From: Fervidicoccus fontis Kam940
Lineage (GTDB): Archaea > Thermoproteota > Thermoprotei_A > Sulfolobales > Fervidicoccaceae
Assembly: GCF_000258425.1 (NCBI RefSeq)
Contig: NC_017461.1
Location: forward strand, 124,001-188,000
Length of the DNA: 64,000 nt
Direction: 5' to 3'
Part shown: piece by piece, positions 5,610 through 20,337 of the stretch
Numbering within the stretch: position 1 is the stretch's first letter
Layout: the number at the start of each line of letters is the position of its first letter
The notes under the pieces: generated by a model
What the model was told of the DNA's origin: nothing
The model's database searches: none
The model's input: only the letters and a program-made list of their open reading frames with translations
Program-made: the position numbers and the translations under genes

Positions 5610-5899
5610 AAGTCCACCTTCCTTCCATATATTTATTAAAATATTTTAAAATCATATTTATAAACAAAACTGTTAAAAAATAAACAATAGTTATGGTTTT
5701 ATTTTAATTAGAATAGTAATATGTTTCATAAAATATGGAAATGTAAAGTATTAACAAAAATTTCTAAACAATTCATTTATGATTATAATACTGAATCGAA
5801 TTTTTGTACTTATATAAAGTTAAAAAATATTAATCCGATTTGATTTTAGATAACATCAATAATGGTATTATGTAGAATTATTGAGAAGAGCTGATTATT

Positions 5900-8800
5900 A
5901 TGTTCTACAGAAAAATTTTCTATCTTCTATCGATCATTATTATTGCTGCATCCTTTGCCATAATTGTATCAGAAGCACAAACCTCTGAACCAACAAACAC
6001 TCAAATAAACTCAATTAATTTCGTTTCTTCTCAAAACACTCCTGTTTATCCCGGGAGCAAAAATGCCCAATTGAGGATAGAAGTTCTCTTTAACGTAAAT
6101 GCCAGTAATGCTATAGGAAACTTGAGCAGTTTGCCACCCGGTTTTTCCCCGAGCTCAAACAGCGGGTATTCATCAGCTGCGAGAGATTTGTATGGGAACC
6201 AGGTTTATTTTATAAATGCTAGCGATGTGGTGTATTTTGAGTACTATTTAAATGTTAATAGCGATGTCTCTCCCGGGACTTACCCTATTGGGTTCTCCTT
6301 ATCTTATACCATTAATTCCACAACAAGAGAGACTGACTACTTTACAATTTACGTTACAGTCTCTCAATATCCCCCTTTGATGGTTAAAGTTGTCTCTTCC
6401 CAGTGGAATCCAGCGGGATATCCTGGGACTCAGAATACGCAGCTTCAAATCACGATAGAAAACGATGGTAACAGTACGATCAATTCTGCGGTTGCTTCTC
6501 TTTCGCTTCCAAGCGGGTTTGTCTATACAGGCGGAAGCATTCAGATTGGAACCCTTCAGAGCAATTCAAGAACGACGATCTCTTTTTCAGGAATAAATAT
6601 CGATAAAAGCCTCTCGCCCGGCAATTACACTTTTTCTATAACCTTAAACGCGTTAATGTCCACCCAGGACGGAGTTGGATATGACGCGCAGGGAACCATT
6701 ACATTTACAGTTCAGGTGGAGAGCATTCCCTCCTACTATTATGAGCTAAATCTTCTAAGCCTAAAATGGGGAGCAGCATCACCTCAGCCCGTCTATGAGA
6801 ATTCCAGATACGTGCAACTCAGTGCAACCTTTTTAAATACAGGTCAATACCCGATTTTTTCTGTGAACGGCACAGCAAATTCTGAGTACTTCATTCCGAT
6901 TTCGAACATCGACTCTTACTATGGAAGCATTTCAACTGGGGGAACATTCACTCTTTCGTTCTATTTCGACATAAACTCAACTTCTCTCTCTCAGCTTCTT
7001 TCCCAAAATGAAGTTCCTGTACACTTCAATGTTTCTTATATGATAAATTTAGGAAACAACGCATACATAGTAATTTTTTCAAACTTCACTAGCTTTGTAG
7101 GAATTGAGAATTATGTAGGAGTAAGCAACGGAACAGGGGTCTCTCTCATATCGAGCGGCTGGCTTAGCAGCTACACAGTTTATCCAAACACAGACAACGC
7201 CATTTATACTGTACAGATAGCAAATAGGCTTCCATTCTCAATCAACGGTATAAATGCCACACTGTTCCTTCCAAGCGGCTTTGAAAGCAACGGGTGCAAT
7301 TATGCAAGTGCATATTACGGCACTATCTTGCAAAGCTATTCCTCTTCTACTCTTCAGTTTAAATTTAATGTAGGCAACATTCCTCCGGGGATTTACAATG
7401 CTACACTCTTGGTTGACTACATAGCAAATACAGGAGGTCCGGGCTCAAGGCTCTTCAATTTATTTCGAGTACAGCTTAATATAACTGGGGAAAGCAATAC
7501 ATTAGAGGTAGTCGACTCGTCTTTTCCACTAAGCTCCGCTGACACTTTTTCCCTCGGCGATCAGTTCAGGCTTACAATAAGGAATTTGGGATACGATTCT
7601 ATGAATTACCCCGTTTTAACCGTTAACCTACCCCCGGGGATCACGTACTCAAACACAAATACTTCAGTATTTTCCATCCTTCCATATACTCCCTCAGTCT
7701 CTCTTCCATCTCAGCTTACAGTTCAGAGCCTACAGGCATACTACCAGCAAGTGCTTTCGAGCTCTCAGCAGTCTAGTACCCAGCAGTCAGGAATTCAGAA
7801 GGGAAGTACTATTACATTTTCATTCCCTCTGAACATAAATGTTAACAGTACAGGAATTTACACTGCAAATGCAACACTCAGCTTCGTTGATGCTTGGGGG
7901 AACATTAGAAATACCTCAATAAGCTTTCAAATTCCAGTGCTTGGGAACATTAGGTACATTGACGTTAAAGTATTTGGGTCTCTCGATATAAGGAGCAGAT
8001 ACACCAACATGACCGTTGTAATATGCAATTACGGAAGTAGCCCTGCTTATAATGTATATGTAACTTTATCTCCTCCCTCAACAATAACCTCAGGTGCATC
8101 ATCCTCACTGCTCTTGGCTACGCCATCTGTCTTCTACATAAAAGAAATTCCTCCAAACAGCAATGTGAGCTTCCCAGTTACTTTTGCATTCAATCCGCTT
8201 GGAGCTCAGTCCTTTTCCGGTGCTTCAACAATTATAAACTATGGAGTCGCGCCATTGAACATCCAAATAAGCTATGAAGATCCTCAGGGAAATTCAAAGA
8301 GCTTCACTACCTCTTTGGCGCTGTCAATTGAGCCATTCATAGATATAGCTTTGACCGGCGGACAAGCTATATACAGCAGCAATGACATAAAGGTGACGGG
8401 AACATTGATAAATTACGGCTCATCAACCGCTTACAGGGTTGAAGTTGTTGGGAGCACAGGAAAACAGACTTCTAGCTATTTTGTTGGAGACATAGATCCA
8501 AGCTCACAGTATGCCTTTAGGGTCGATATCCCAGCTTCTCAGTATGTCCCGATTGTAAACATAACAATAAGCTATTATAACGCCTTCAATGAAAATATCA
8601 ATAGAACGCTACAGCTCTCTGTTATCAACCAACAGGTGAACGAAACTTCCGCAACAACTACAACCTCGACCAGCGAAATGCCTGAAGAATATATTATAGC
8701 ATTATTCATCGTGGCGATTTTCCTGCTTGGTGCAGGATACATAATTTATAGAATGTATAAGACTCACCAAAAAGACATTGAAAAAAGGTTGCCAGAATGA
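5900..8800 (+). CDS. S-layer-like surface protein with tandem NEW3/CARDB-like domains
   Basis: Predicted cell-surface protein of 966 residues, anchored by its C-terminus. It has a class I signal peptide (FYLLSIIIIAASFAIIVSEA, residues 8-27), a long beta-rich ectodomain, a Thr/Ser-rich stalk (SATTTTSTSEMPEE) and a C-terminal membrane helix with a basic tail. The ectodomain repeats a pattern of roughly 130-150 residues: a surface strand, then YPGTQN- or YPNTDN-like words, then LPSGF or LPPGI. This is typical of the COG1361 S-layer-like family. Asn-X-Ser/Thr sequons are abundant, consistent with glycosylation. Its stop overlaps the start of the permease gene (ATGA), so the two are translationally coupled. 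Its role is probably export or envelope-related; no enzymatic motif is seen. Confidence 0.75.
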   Translation: MFYRKIFYLLSIIIIAASFAIIVSEAQTSEPTNTQINSINFVSSQNTPVYPGSKNAQLRIEVLFNVNASNAIGNLSSLPPGFSPSSNSGYSSAARDLYGNQVYFINASDVVYFEYYLNVNSDVSPGTYPIGFSLSYTINSTTRETDYFTIYVTVSQYPPLMVKVVSSQWNPAGYPGTQNTQLQITIENDGNSTINSAVASLSLPSGFVYTGGSIQIGTLQSNSRTTISFSGINIDKSLSPGNYTFSITLNALMSTQDGVGYDAQGTITFTVQVESIPSYYYELNLLSLKWGAASPQPVYENSRYVQLSATFLNTGQYPIFSVNGTANSEYFIPISNIDSYYGSISTGGTFTLSFYFDINSTSLSQLLSQNEVPVHFNVSYMINLGNNAYIVIFSNFTSFVGIENYVGVSNGTGVSLISSGWLSSYTVYPNTDNAIYTVQIANRLPFSINGINATLFLPSGFESNGCNYASAYYGTILQSYSSSTLQFKFNVGNIPPGIYNATLLVDYIANTGGPGSRLFNLFRVQLNITGESNTLEVVDSSFPLSSADTFSLGDQFRLTIRNLGYDSMNYPVLTVNLPPGITYSNTNTSVFSILPYTPSVSLPSQLTVQSLQAYYQQVLSSSQQSSTQQSGIQKGSTITFSFPLNINVNSTGIYTANATLSFVDAWGNIRNTSISFQIPVLGNIRYIDVKVFGSLDIRSRYTNMTVVICNYGSSPAYNVYVTLSPPSTITSGASSSLLLATPSVFYIKEIPPNSNVSFPVTFAFNPLGAQSFSGASTIINYGVAPLNIQISYEDPQGNSKSFTTSLALSIEPFIDIALTGGQAIYSSNDIKVTGTLINYGSSTAYRVEVVGSTGKQTSSYFVGDIDPSSQYAFRVDIPASQYVPIVNITISYYNAFNENINRTLQLSVINQQVNETSATTTTSTSEMPEEYIIALFIVAIFLLGAGYIIYRMYKTHQKDIEKRLPE

Positions 8801-10032
8801 GCATCAAAAGGTTTTTCTCGCTTTTGGGAATGTCCTATAAAATGGCAGTTAAGTCCCTCGGAAGCAGGAAGCTAAGGAGCATATTGACTATTCTAGGAAT
8901 AATTATAGGCCCAGCAGTAATTGTCATGATGGGAGCTGTAGTAGGAGGGTACTCTCAATACATCCTCAATCAAGTGACGAGCCTCGGACAAAACAACATA
9001 ATGATAACTCCGTCTTCAGATTATACTCTGACATCTAGCGATCTGAGCTACTTCAAGTCGTTCAGTTATGTTGTAAATGCCGTGCCATATTACTTGACAC
9101 AAGCAACAGTCACAGTGGGCAACTCTCAAGAGCAAATTTATATTTACTGCACGGATGTGAACTTCGTATTACATGCGATTGGAGGGCTGGAAATCGAGGA
9201 GGGAAGCGCTCCTTCGCAGGGAGATGTGCTTGATGCATTAATAGGGCATAAAGTCGCCTACGACCAAAATGGAAATTTAGAATATGGAGTGGGCGATGTG
9301 GTACCATTAAAAGTTTTTACGAAAATCACTAACGGAATCCCTCAGTACAAAACAGTAAACGTAATTGTAAGCGGAGTGCTTAAAGAATATGGGGGCGCTC
9401 TTATCTTCAGCCCAGACCAGACAATATTCTTAGATACTGATGCGGGTCAGAAGCTTTTAGGTCTAAACAGCTGGAGCGGCATATTAGTACAGGTGAGTGA
9501 TCCTATCTACGTGAAGGATTTTGTCAGCACCGTAGAGAGCACCTATGGAAATAAGGTTTCTGTGATCTCCTTCAGTGCAATTGCAGATATAGTTTCAAGC
9601 ATAACTGGAGCAGTAAACTATATAAATTATGTAGCTTCACTTTCTGCATTTGCCGTTGCAATAGCTGGGACAACAGCGACCATGGTTACTTCAGTCATTG
9701 AAAGGACGAAAGAGATAGGCGTAATGAAGTCGATAGGATATACCAACAGGGAAATCATAATAATGATATTATCTGAATCAACTCTCATGAGCTTTATAGC
9801 AGCCGTTGCAGGCAGTCTGCTCGGAGTTGCAGGTTCATTTGTGCTTGGAGGAAGTGGAATGACTATAAGGGCTGGAACAAACACAGTTGTAATAAACAGT
9901 CATCCGCTGTTCTCTGCACATTTATTCATAACTTCAATTGGATTGACAATACTTGTAGGAGTAGTAGGAGGGATTTTGCCTGCATATATGGCCTCGAGGA
10001 TCCCTCCCGCTGTTGCGTTGAGATATGAATGA
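8797..10032 (+). CDS. FtsX/MacB-type ABC transporter permease
   Basis: Membrane protein of 411 residues with the MacB architecture: an N-terminal helix with the sequence SLGSRKLRSILTILGIIIG (about residues 20-38), a large extracellular MacB_PCD-like domain (about 45-270), and a three-helix FtsX domain at the C-terminus containing VIERTKEIGVMKSIGYT (about 300-316), the coupling segment for the ATPase. Such permeases act as mechanotransmission pumps or lipoprotein/peptide exporters with a separate ATP-binding subunit. No ATPase gene lies beside it here; the only ABC ATPase in the window is the sugar-type one at 19.3 kb. Start ATG overlaps the upstream stop. Confidence 0.85.
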   Translation: MSIKRFFSLLGMSYKMAVKSLGSRKLRSILTILGIIIGPAVIVMMGAVVGGYSQYILNQVTSLGQNNIMITPSSDYTLTSSDLSYFKSFSYVVNAVPYYLTQATVTVGNSQEQIYIYCTDVNFVLHAIGGLEIEEGSAPSQGDVLDALIGHKVAYDQNGNLEYGVGDVVPLKVFTKITNGIPQYKTVNVIVSGVLKEYGGALIFSPDQTIFLDTDAGQKLLGLNSWSGILVQVSDPIYVKDFVSTVESTYGNKVSVISFSAIADIVSSITGAVNYINYVASLSAFAVAIAGTTATMVTSVIERTKEIGVMKSIGYTNREIIIMILSESTLMSFIAAVAGSLLGVAGSFVLGGSGMTIRAGTNTVVINSHPLFSAHLFITSIGLTILVGVVGGILPAYMASRIPPAVALRYE

Positions 10033-10090
10033 GTTTTTTAAATGTAAAAAATATATAGAGAAAAATAATTATAATTTATTTGGTGAGAGA

Positions 10091-10519
10091 ATGTCAGAAG
10101 TACCACTAAAGCCTGTGGGGAAGGAAGAGATCAGAAAACTTGAACTCGCTCTTATTATTGCGACTTTGTTCAGAGAAGACGTCCTTCAGCAGGCTCTTGA
10201 AACGAAAGACAAATTGACATGGCTTGATTCTCTGATAGTTGCTGCAGGAGCACTGGCTAGGGAGAGAGCGGGAATTCCGGCATCGAGGATAGCTGAAGAG
10301 CTTGAAAGGACTGAAGCAACTATAAGAAACCACCTTTCAGGAAAGACAGATGCTGGAAAGATGGTTAAAGAAACTTACGAGCAATTGGTAAAGAGTGGAG
10401 GGAGCTTAAGCAACATAGTTCCCGAAATCCTTGTAAAGAGCAGCGAAGAGGAAAAGTGCAAGGAAAGACTTGAATTAGTGAAGCAAAAAATCGAAGAGAT
10501 AAAGAAGCTATTAGAGTAA
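10091..10519 (+). CDS. Small helix-turn-helix-like regulator (near-KaiC-type domain)
   Basis: I start this gene at ATG 10091, preceded by a GGTGAG ribosome site, rather than at an in-frame start that overlaps the permease. This gives 142 residues. The central segment (about 45-100), with AGALARERAGIPASRIAEEL then RTEATIRNHLSGKT, has the helix-turn-helix look of the archaeal regulatory domain often found next to KaiC-like genes (TIGR03879 in my memory). The C-terminus is a charged, coiled-coil-like helix (KERLELVKQKIEEIKKLLE). A short AT-rich stretch at 10041-10080 could give it its own promoter. DNA binding is inferred from the motif, not shown. Confidence 0.6.
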   Translation: MSEVPLKPVGKEEIRKLELALIIATLFREDVLQQALETKDKLTWLDSLIVAAGALARERAGIPASRIAEELERTEATIRNHLSGKTDAGKMVKETYEQLVKSGGSLSNIVPEILVKSSEEEKCKERLELVKQKIEEIKKLLE

Positions 10520-10543: not shown

Positions 10544-10777
10544 GTGAGACAAAGAGCTCTGGAAGAAGGGAAGATGCTGCTCATTCCTTCTCCTAGACTG
10601 AAGACAGGGTTCATGCTTTTGAACCCGAGCGAGATCCAAAAAAAGCTATACAGGGAAGCTAAAAGGAGCAAGGCTGAAGAAGCATTCAATAAGCTCAGGA
10701 AGATAATAAGCTCTGAAGATTTAGGGGGAATTGAAAGATCCAGCAGAGAGTTCAGAGAGGGATTCAAGCTGAGATGA
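10544..10777 (+). CDS. Putative antitoxin of a VapBC-like pair
   Basis: Small basic protein of 77 residues ending in a charged, helical C-terminus (LGGIERSSREFREGFKLR), as in antitoxins that insert a tail into a PIN toxin. The N-terminus is not an obvious AbrB or ribbon-helix-helix domain, so the call rests mainly on position: its stop overlaps the start of the PIN-domain gene (ATGA). The GTG at 10544 is used here; ATG at 10574, preceded by a purine-rich GAAGGGAAG, would give 67 residues and is an equally good start. The short gap of 24 bases behind the upstream regulator leaves open whether they are one transcript. Confidence 0.55.
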   Translation: MRQRALEEGKMLLIPSPRLKTGFMLLNPSEIQKKLYREAKRSKAEEAFNKLRKIISSEDLGGIERSSREFREGFKLR

Positions 10778-11127
10778 GGCTAATCGATACAAGTGTTTTG
10801 ATTGAGGATGTAAAGAAGGGAGTCTACGAGGAAGGAGCCATTTCGTCAATAACTTTAATAGAAGTGCTTCGTGGTATAGCTCCTGAGAAGAGAGTAATGG
10901 TTAAAGAGCTTTTGGAGAAAAGCTACGAGCTTAAAAGCTTAGATAATGAAGCAATATTAAAGTACTGCGAATTATACGATGCCCTCAAGGAAAAGGAAAA
11001 TCTCATACGTGATGCGGATCTCTTGATCGCCTCTGTAGCTATAGCAAAAAACTTAGAGCTCATGACGAAAGATAAAGATTTCGAAAGGCAAAAGGACTTA
11101 GGGCTCAAATTGAAGCTGGAAAAATAA
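10774..11127 (+). CDS. vapC: PIN-domain ribonuclease toxin, VapC-like
   Basis: PIN-domain protein of 117 residues, the standard length of VapC toxins, which cleave RNA (often tRNA or rRNA) with Mg2+. The acidic residues expected in the active site are visible: Asp5 in RLIDTSVLIED, Glu30 in SITLIEVLRG, Asp80 in LIRDADLLIA, and the terminal acid in MTKDKDFER (about 97-105). It is translationally coupled to the preceding antitoxin candidate. No second copy is seen in the window. Confidence 0.85.
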   Translation: MRLIDTSVLIEDVKKGVYEEGAISSITLIEVLRGIAPEKRVMVKELLEKSYELKSLDNEAILKYCELYDALKEKENLIRDADLLIASVAIAKNLELMTKDKDFERQKDLGLKLKLEK

Positions 11128-17659: not shown

Positions 17660-19351
17660 ATGAGGAAAATAGACAAATATATTTTTTTAATTTCACTTCC
17701 AGCCATAGCTTATATTCTCATATTTACAATTTATCCTATAGTAAGTAACTTCATCTTAAGCTTATATACTCAGGATCCTCTCGGAAGATTGATATATACA
17801 GGTCTTGAAAACTATTTCTGGTTTAAAAAGGATCCATATCTTTCCAGGATCATAGTGAATACGCTTTTATACATGTTTGCAACCCCGATTATTGACATAA
17901 TCTTCGCGATTCCCTTAGCTGTTGCACTGAAAAGGGTAGGGAGCAAGTGGCTGTTCCTCATAATGCTTCCTGCATTTATTCCTCCTGTCACAGCTGCAAG
18001 CATGTGGTACCTCATGATAAATCCGTTCTTTGGAGTAGCATATTACCTCACAAAAACCAACTTAGCTTCATCAATTTGGACCGTTGTGCTTATAGATGTG
18101 TGGAGAAGCCTTCCGATGGCTACGCTTATAATTTATTCCGGATTGGTTTCAATACCAAAAGAAATACAGCATGCTGCCAGCTCTGATGGTCTTGCAGGTG
18201 CAAAGAGATTCTTTATGATAGATCTTCCTCTCATCTCGCCTCAAATACTTACGGCTTTTGTCCTTATGATGATAACTGGACTCTTTACATTTGACCCAAT
18301 TTATATAGGCACATCTCAAGCTGGGCCGAGGATTCTGGACAATTTAGCATATTACGCCTTTGACCAGTTTTACTCCGGTGTTCCTGGATATGCAGCTGCC
18401 ATAATTGTTCTCATGTCGCTACTATCAACAGCTCTCGCTATTATCTACATAAAAACTTTAGGATCTCAGAAGTTCATGAGGCTGTCCGTTCCGGACTTTA
18501 TACCAAACTCTGAAGCTCCCCTCTGGTTGCATAAGCTTATTGTTGCTATTTACCTAGCCTTCTTCCTCATACCGATGTACTGGATTATAAATATAGCACT
18601 GAAGACACCTATTGAGCTTATAAGCATCCCTCCCTTACTATATCCGAGGTCAGTAACGTTTGCCAACTTCGATCTCATGTTTACTCAAGGTTTGCCCTAT
18701 ATAATAACTACACTTGCAGTGGCTTCTATAAATACTCTTATAACCCTCTTTCTCGTTTCCCCATTGGCGTATTCGATGGCATCTCATAAATTTGGCGGTA
18801 GCAAGTTGCTTATCTACATCCTCTACCTCAACGCTACTCCTACGCTTATATACATAATCCCAATTTTCGCATTTTTAAAAATACTAGGTATAATTAATAC
18901 GTGGTGGGCCTTAATACTGACATATCCAATAATGACGATCCCAATAACGACGTGGATAATGTATAATTATTATTTAAAATTTCCAAAGCAGATCGAAGAA
19001 GCTGCTCAGATGGATGGTATGAACAGGCTTAAGGTATTCTACAAAATGGTTCTGCCATTGAGCAGAAGCGGTCTCAGCGTTGCGGCCATCTATGCATTTT
19101 TGTATAGCTGGGGAGCGCTCATCTTTCCTCTAGCTTTTACCTATTCGCCATATGATCTCAGTAAGCCTTTAAGCTTTTCAGGGGCTCAGACCTTTTCAAT
19201 ATTCATAGGACTCCTCATGAGTCCTGTTTCTATGAGCTATGGGGGTGTAGCTGCGGCCGGAGTCATAAGTTCAATCCCGTCTCTGGTGCTCCTCTACTTC
19301 GGTAGGAATAACCTTGAAAAAATTTGGGGCTCAAGTGGTGGAAAAATATGA
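17660..19351 (+). CDS. Fused ABC sugar permease (MalF-MalG-like in one chain)
   Basis: Single polypeptide of 563 residues that joins two binding-protein-dependent permease domains normally made as separate MalF-like and MalG-like subunits. Two cytoplasmic EAA loops are visible: EIQHAASSDGLAGAKRFFMI in the first half and QIEEAAQMDGMNRLKVFYKM in the second, each the docking site for one ATPase subunit. The linker is around residues 275-300 (SVPDFIPNSEAPLW). About 12 membrane segments in total. GGTG plus ATG 17660 set the start; its stop overlaps the ATPase start (ATGA). The reading frame is continuous with no sign of a missed stop, so the fusion looks genuine. Confidence 0.85.
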   Translation: MRKIDKYIFLISLPAIAYILIFTIYPIVSNFILSLYTQDPLGRLIYTGLENYFWFKKDPYLSRIIVNTLLYMFATPIIDIIFAIPLAVALKRVGSKWLFLIMLPAFIPPVTAASMWYLMINPFFGVAYYLTKTNLASSIWTVVLIDVWRSLPMATLIIYSGLVSIPKEIQHAASSDGLAGAKRFFMIDLPLISPQILTAFVLMMITGLFTFDPIYIGTSQAGPRILDNLAYYAFDQFYSGVPGYAAAIIVLMSLLSTALAIIYIKTLGSQKFMRLSVPDFIPNSEAPLWLHKLIVAIYLAFFLIPMYWIINIALKTPIELISIPPLLYPRSVTFANFDLMFTQGLPYIITTLAVASINTLITLFLVSPLAYSMASHKFGGSKLLIYILYLNATPTLIYIIPIFAFLKILGIINTWWALILTYPIMTIPITTWIMYNYYLKFPKQIEEAAQMDGMNRLKVFYKMVLPLSRSGLSVAAIYAFLYSWGALIFPLAFTYSPYDLSKPLSFSGAQTFSIFIGLLMSPVSMSYGGVAAAGVISSIPSLVLLYFGRNNLEKIWGSSGGKI

Positions 19352-20337
19352 CACTAAGGCTTGAAAATTTGAGAAAGAGATATGGTCAGTTTGAGCTTAG
19401 GATAGAGGAATATACTTTCAAAGAAAAAAGCTACAATGTAGTTTTAGGCTCTTCTGGATCTGGAAAGACTACCACCCTCAGGCTCATTGCAGGATTGGAA
19501 CTCCCAGATGAGGGGAAGATAATACTAGATGGTGTCGACATAACAAATGTTCCAGCATGGAAAAGAGATATAGGGCTCGTATTTCAGAACTATGCTCTTT
19601 ACCCTCATTTAACTGCGTATGAAAATATTTCCGTTCCGCTTAAAATAAAAAAGCTAGACAGAAAGACAATAGATGAGAAAGTTAAGAATGTCGCTGAGAT
19701 ACTCGGGATCTCCAGCGAGCTTCATAAGTATCCTCATCAGCTTTCTGGTGGACAGCAACAGAGGGTCGCAATTGCAAGAGCCCTAGTTAAGGAGCCAAAA
19801 ATACTTCTCCTCGACGAGCCTTTGAGTAATTTAGATGCGAGGCTAAGACTTGAGGTCAGGGTATTTCTAAAGGAATTGCAAAGGAAGCTGAACATGACTG
19901 TAATACATGTAACACATGATCAGGAAGAGGCTATGGCAATAGCTGATAATATAGTAATACTGAATTCCGGCAAAATCGTTCAAGACGGCAGTCCCGCTGA
20001 AATCTACAGGAAACCTAAGAACACATTTATTTTTACCTTTATTGGACTGAGCAACTTGCTTCCTGCGTCGTTTTTTGGTATAGATGATGCTGACCTTGTT
20101 GGGTTTAGGCCAGAAGATGCTGAAATTGTAAACACCGATGGAGACATCAGCGGATTAGTTGAAGAAATTCAGTACTTAGGTGCTTACAAGCTATTGGAGA
20201 TTTCAATTGATGAAAAACACAGCGTGATTGTGAGGGTTTTGCCTAGTGAAGAAATTTCTGAAGGACAAAAAGTTGGGATATCGATCCCAAGAGATTTAAT
20301 GCTTAAGTTTAAAAATGAGGAGAGAGTCCCTCAATGA
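19348..20337 (+). CDS. ABC transporter ATPase, MalK/UgpC-like
   Basis: Cytoplasmic ATPase driving the sugar transporter. Walker A GSSGSGKTT (about residues 33-41), Q-loop FQNYALYPHLT, signature LSGGQQQRVAIARAL, Walker B ILLLDEPLSNLDARLR and the switch His in VTHDQEEAM are all intact. A C-terminal regulatory TOBE-like domain follows (about 235-329, FRPEDAEI). At about 329 residues it is slightly shorter than typical MalK. I choose ATG 19348, which overlaps the permease stop, over an upstream TTG inside the permease gene. Its own stop overlaps the following DHH gene, so all four genes are likely one transcript. Confidence 0.92.
   Translation: MTLRLENLRKRYGQFELRIEEYTFKEKSYNVVLGSSGSGKTTTLRLIAGLELPDEGKIILDGVDITNVPAWKRDIGLVFQNYALYPHLTAYENISVPLKIKKLDRKTIDEKVKNVAEILGISSELHKYPHQLSGGQQQRVAIARALVKEPKILLLDEPLSNLDARLRLEVRVFLKELQRKLNMTVIHVTHDQEEAMAIADNIVILNSGKIVQDGSPAEIYRKPKNTFIFTFIGLSNLLPASFFGIDDADLVGFRPEDAEIVNTDGDISGLVEEIQYLGAYKLLEISIDEKHSVIVRVLPSEEISEGQKVGISIPRDLMLKFKNEERVPQ

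Follow-up and report, generated by a model that had tools for sequence, protein, structure and literature searches.

Can a MacB-type ABC permease work without an ATPase, or is its ATPase supplied from elsewhere in the genome when none is encoded beside it? This question is raised by a locus in Fervidicoccus fontis Kam940, which we analyzed within a 64-kb stretch of DNA (G000:C1:124001-188000; hereafter, the window) from a genome that consists of a single contig of 1.319 Mb and is 99.9% complete. The initial annotation described three genes in a row, the first two overlapping by ATGA, and our ORFs, all on the + strand, agree with that description (Table 1). It also held that no ABC ATPase gene is adjacent, which we find to be so from a survey of the ORFs and an examination of the upstream gap. 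Our reading, held with high confidence, is that the locus contains two of the three components of a conserved archaeal type VII (MacB/LolCDE-fold) ABC complex; the ATPase gene has been separated from them by rearrangement, and its product would act in trans.

Table 1. Features of the split ABC unit and its third neighbor gene; positions are those of the window except for the G000:C1 and L035 entries.
Feature	Position	Strand	Description
AT-rich gap	5610-5899		Site of the ABC ATPase gene in relatives; TTATATAA near 5812
Surface protein, 966 aa	5900-8800	+	ORF; signal peptide, about 7 Ig-like/CARDB-like beta-sandwich domains, C-terminal TM helix, short basic cytosolic tail
MacB/LolC/FtsX-fold (type VII) ABC permease, 411 aa	8797-10032	+	4 TM helices, large extracellular domain between TM1 and TM2, coupling helix ERTKEIGVMKSIG
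TIGR03879 near-KaiC/HTH-like protein	10091-10519 (ORF 10025-10519, 164 aa)	+	Not part of the ABC unit
Orthologous ABC ATPase	G000:C1:338178-338903 (= L035:3176-3904)	-	204 kb from the surface protein-permease pair

The permease was annotated as a mechanotransmission-type (FtsX/MacB) protein, and this assignment is upheld by domain matches to MacB_PCD (E 4e-20) and FtsX (7e-19) and by an AlphaFold2 model with the MacB fold. In the model, TM1 with its stalk spans residues 25-63, followed by the extracellular domain at 67-258, TM2 at 259-302, a coupling helix at 304-313 between TM2 and TM3, TM3 at 317-353, and TM4 at 374-400. The best Foldseek match was MacB (5gko, E 1e-21), with LolE and 5xu1 next. 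The model and the Foldseek matches thus show the marks of a type VII ABC permease, namely four TM helices, an extracellular domain that separates TM1 from TM2, and a coupling helix that links TM2 to TM3, and the class to which we assign the complex is one already known. Among 31 homologues there is no variation at eight residues in and around the coupling helix (E302, R303, E306, I307, G308, V309, K311, and G314).

We found no ATPase remnant in the 290-bp gap upstream of position 5900; judging from its sequence, the promoter from which the surface protein-permease pair is transcribed probably lies here, at the element listed in Table 1. The sole ABC ATPase in the window, encoded at 19324-20337, was rejected as the partner because of its size (337 aa) and because it falls outside the clade of operon ATPases in our tree. 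For a search of the whole Kam940 genome, the operon ATPases of relatives served as queries. One gene, at 338 kb on the opposite strand (Table 1), encodes a protein 61-68% identical to these queries, while every other ATPase match in the genome is at most 47% identical. In the tree, the 338-kb ATPase groups with three operon ATPases from the same family (G003, G004, and G006; support 99/98), and both the other ATPases of Kam940 and those of paralogous systems lie outside this clade. Its Walker A (GPSGSGKS), signature (LSGGQ), Walker B (ILADEP), and H-loop (VTHD) motifs are intact. The solved ATPases closest to it are MJ0796 of Methanocaldococcus jannaschii (1f3o/1l2t), itself archaeal, and 5xu1 chain A, and it scores well on the LolD model but below its cut-off. 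The genome therefore does encode a cognate ATPase of the LolD/MacB class. Of the two alternatives offered at the outset by the initial annotation, it is supply from elsewhere that is borne out by this orthologue.

To place the locus among its relatives, we compared 80 named loci from Desulfurococcales, Sulfolobales, Bathyarchaeota, Nezhaarchaeota, and others, 54 of which have room to judge the position of the ATPase gene. The order ATPase-surface protein-permease is found in the same family (G003, G004, and G006) and across the order, and ATPase and permease are separate genes in the loci examined. In 42 of the 54 judgeable loci the ATPase gene is directly upstream, in 1 it is directly downstream, in 5 it is nearby but inverted, and in the remaining 6 it is outside the examined stretch; all 6 of these genomes, and also that of L154, carry the orthologue elsewhere. 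The ATPase gene is also unlinked in G011 and G040, which belong to one genus, and in G037, whose genus-mate G053 has a contig edge at the locus; in G046 and G054 it has been displaced locally, and in G024 it is downstream. Five loci from Sulfolobales, Desulfurococcales, and Thermoproteota bins (L141, L142, L145, L147, and L157) likewise have the pair without a linked ATPase gene, and each of these genomes has the ATPase elsewhere.

The surface protein gene is directly upstream of the permease gene in 78 of the 80 loci. Among 59 related genomes, with the permease called at E<=1e-90, 31 have the permease, and every one of these 31 also encodes the surface protein. The ATPase is present in 30 of them, and the sole exception, G030, is represented at the permease locus only by a 3-kb contig. 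None of the 28 genomes without the permease has the surface protein or the ATPase at comparable strength. The surface protein and the permease are a real and tightly conserved pair, so that gene order and co-occurrence support the pairing that the initial annotation raised as a possibility. Over the order as a whole, 116 of the 197 genomes sampled gave strong matches to the permease profile; the weaker of these matches (E about 1e-71 to 1e-80) include a paralogous system.

This paralogous system is an archaeal trio of ATPase, CARDB-rich exoprotein, and MacB-type permease (L077-L084), with the same gene order in most. Its exoproteins align end to end with the surface protein (hhalign probability 100, E 1.7e-49), but the permeases are 26-31% identical and its ATPases lie outside the clade described above. 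Operons of this second kind (e.g., L077:7756-12434) also occur in some relatives that do not have the first system.

These comparisons bear on two ways in which the pair might do without an ATPase of its own. Were the surface protein and permease an ATP-independent envelope complex whose ATPase had been lost, the absence of an adjacent ATPase gene would follow directly, but the orthologue is intact in the genome and groups with the operon ATPases, the co-occurrence data show no ATPase-less lineage, and the coupling-helix residues are invariant. We consider such a complex extremely improbable and reject ATPase-free operation, and with it the suggestion that the group works in another way. Alternatively, a shared, non-dedicated LolD/MacB-type ATPase could serve several permeases in trans, which would account for the loss of linkage in several lineages. 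This too is very unlikely, given that the genome contains just one further FtsX-type locus, which has an ATPase of its own nearby, and that none of the 28 compared genomes without the permease has the ATPase. In that other locus (G000:C1:584306-587840; L031), FtsX-like ORFs precede the gene for a LolD-like ATPase of 220 aa, whose branch in the tree is long and whose composition is biased.

Traces of how the ATPase gene came to lie so far away are seen at both sites. The gene adjoining the 338-kb ATPase gene is ZPR1-like (jr-ZPR1, E 1e-9), and in G003 and G006 its orthologue is directly upstream of an intact ATPase-surface protein-permease operon. ArgS, which is near the surface protein-permease pair in Kam940, likewise lies close to the permease gene of G003 and G006. 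Because the ATPase gene is still beside the ZPR1-like gene, is intact, and encodes a member of the operon clade, we conclude that the operon was split by rearrangement and that the ATPase gene moved away and was not lost. Since the orientation of the ATPase gene with respect to the ZPR1-like gene has been reversed, the split may have taken more than one rearrangement. Misassembly of the Kam940 genome is an unlikely but conceivable source of the unlinking, which independent relatives also show. Thus, of the objection foreseen in the initial annotation, namely that relatives would always encode the ATPase with the permease and that this copy would be a recent loss, the first part is largely correct, and relocation takes the place of loss in the second. 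An apparently ATPase-free MacB-type system is thereby removed, and operon splitting is seen to be able to mimic a missing motor.

In the MacB family, ATPases are either fused to the permease or separate, ATP binding dimerizes them, TM2 is pushed by the coupling helix that joins it to TM3, and the extracellular domains close (PMC5985334). By analogy, the 338-kb ATPase would act in trans on the permease in a core of two ATPases and two permeases; upon ATP binding the ATPase dimer would close and the coupling helix would push TM2, so as to move the extracellular domains.

The model predicted for the surface protein resolves residues 34-912 into about seven Ig-like beta-sandwich domains (mean pLDDT 84), and a C-terminal TM helix follows at about 932-955. 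Its domain matches are to CARDB, NPCBM_assoc, and TRAP_beta-like families only, and the domain searches found no enzyme domain. A sequence search of the PDB gave no relative, and a fold search against solved structures matched nothing beyond generic Ig-like arrays, at TM-scores below 0.3, so an S-layer protein by homology was rejected. Of the earlier label "S-layer-like exoprotein," the exoprotein part stands on the signal peptide and the C-terminal anchor, and "S-layer-like" is a loose term for an array of Ig-like beta-sandwiches.

Homologues of the surface protein range from about 830 to 1680 residues, and the growth is mostly a single insertion after residue 278 of the 966-aa protein; the domains nearer to the membrane are somewhat better conserved. 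This variable length and the better-kept membrane-near domains suggest, from sequence comparison, that the chain combines a spacer, formed by the Ig-like domains in their varying number, with a conserved contact close to the membrane. The homologues at L052, L142, L167, and others provide a natural series of lengths for this spacer. On gene order and topology, we lean toward the C-terminally anchored Ig-like chain being the dedicated extracellular partner or adaptor of the permease, in which case it would relay the movement, or a bound substrate, outward across the space that separates the membrane from the S-layer.

MacAB(-TolC) and the Gram-positive MacAB-like systems (YknXYZ; Streptococcus pneumoniae, 5xu1) provide the closest solved permeases and share with Kam940 a 4-TM permease with a MacB core domain. 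They also encode a dedicated exoprotein beside the permease, and the 5xu1 system has a separate ATPase, as does Kam940. MacA-type proteins, however, are hairpin/lipoyl adaptors anchored at the N terminus, whereas the Kam940 exoprotein is an Ig-like array anchored at the C terminus; neither a MacA-like hairpin nor a lipoyl domain was seen in its domain matches, model, or fold search. Unlike MacAB-TolC, the Kam940 system has no outer membrane to span, no MacA-type adaptor (hairpin, lipoyl, and beta-barrel), and no fusion of ATPase to permease.

Two other roles were weighed against that of a mechanical adaptor. In an FtsEX-like role, the ATPase cycle would serve as an on/off switch for the surface protein or for an enzyme associated with the S-layer. 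The separate ATPase, single permease gene, and adjoining dedicated exoprotein fit this role, but we think it rather unlikely, since the permease, with its MacB_PCD domain, resembles MacB more closely than FtsX, and the surface protein lacks a recognizable enzyme domain. A LolCDE-like role, in which lipid-anchored or membrane proteins would be extracted by the complex, with the surface protein as their receiver or tether, appears slightly less likely still. The permease resembles LolE by fold and matches the lolCE equivalog over its full length, though at 55.9 bits against a cut-off of 362, and the ATPase is close to LolD, though again below the cut-off; on the other side, LolCDE/LolDF systems differ from the Kam940 unit in that the latter has a single permease gene, not a C/E pair, and an operon with a surface-protein gene and no LolA-like gene.

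The conserved ATPase-exoprotein-permease trio is thus documented in archaea of the Desulfurococcales, Sulfolobales, Bathyarchaeota, and Nezhaarchaeota and is a candidate archaeal version of mechanotransmission across the S-layer space. Our search of the open literature, with subscription literature outside its scope, found no paper on the trio. More tentatively, it is possible that the trio is a Thermoproteota-wide type VII ABC machine, as yet without description in the open papers searched, whose mechanical partner under the S-layer is a membrane-anchored Ig-like array of variable length, an archaeal counterpart of MacA/EnvC.

The third gene of the row does not belong with the other two, although it had been grouped with them. 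Its product scores above the TIGR03879 near_KaiC cut-off (68.1 versus 65.1 bits), and its homologues align from an internal Met at 10091, which is probably the real start, so that an overlap with the permease gene is not required. No near-KaiC homologue was present in any of the 80 loci within the examined stretch around the permease (up to 10 kb on each side), and across the order the homologues are placed elsewhere without a constant partner, except that they adjoin ArgS in the family members G001 and G005. The near-KaiC protein was therefore rejected as a member of the ABC unit. In Kam940 the near-KaiC gene nearly adjoins ArgS. Between the two lie a PIN/VapC toxin gene (10774-11127) and, ahead of it with an overlap of 4 bases, an ORF of 77 aa, which has no Pfam match and is possibly an antitoxin. 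The pair (10544-11127) looks like an insertion, since near-KaiC and ArgS are adjacent in G001 and G005.
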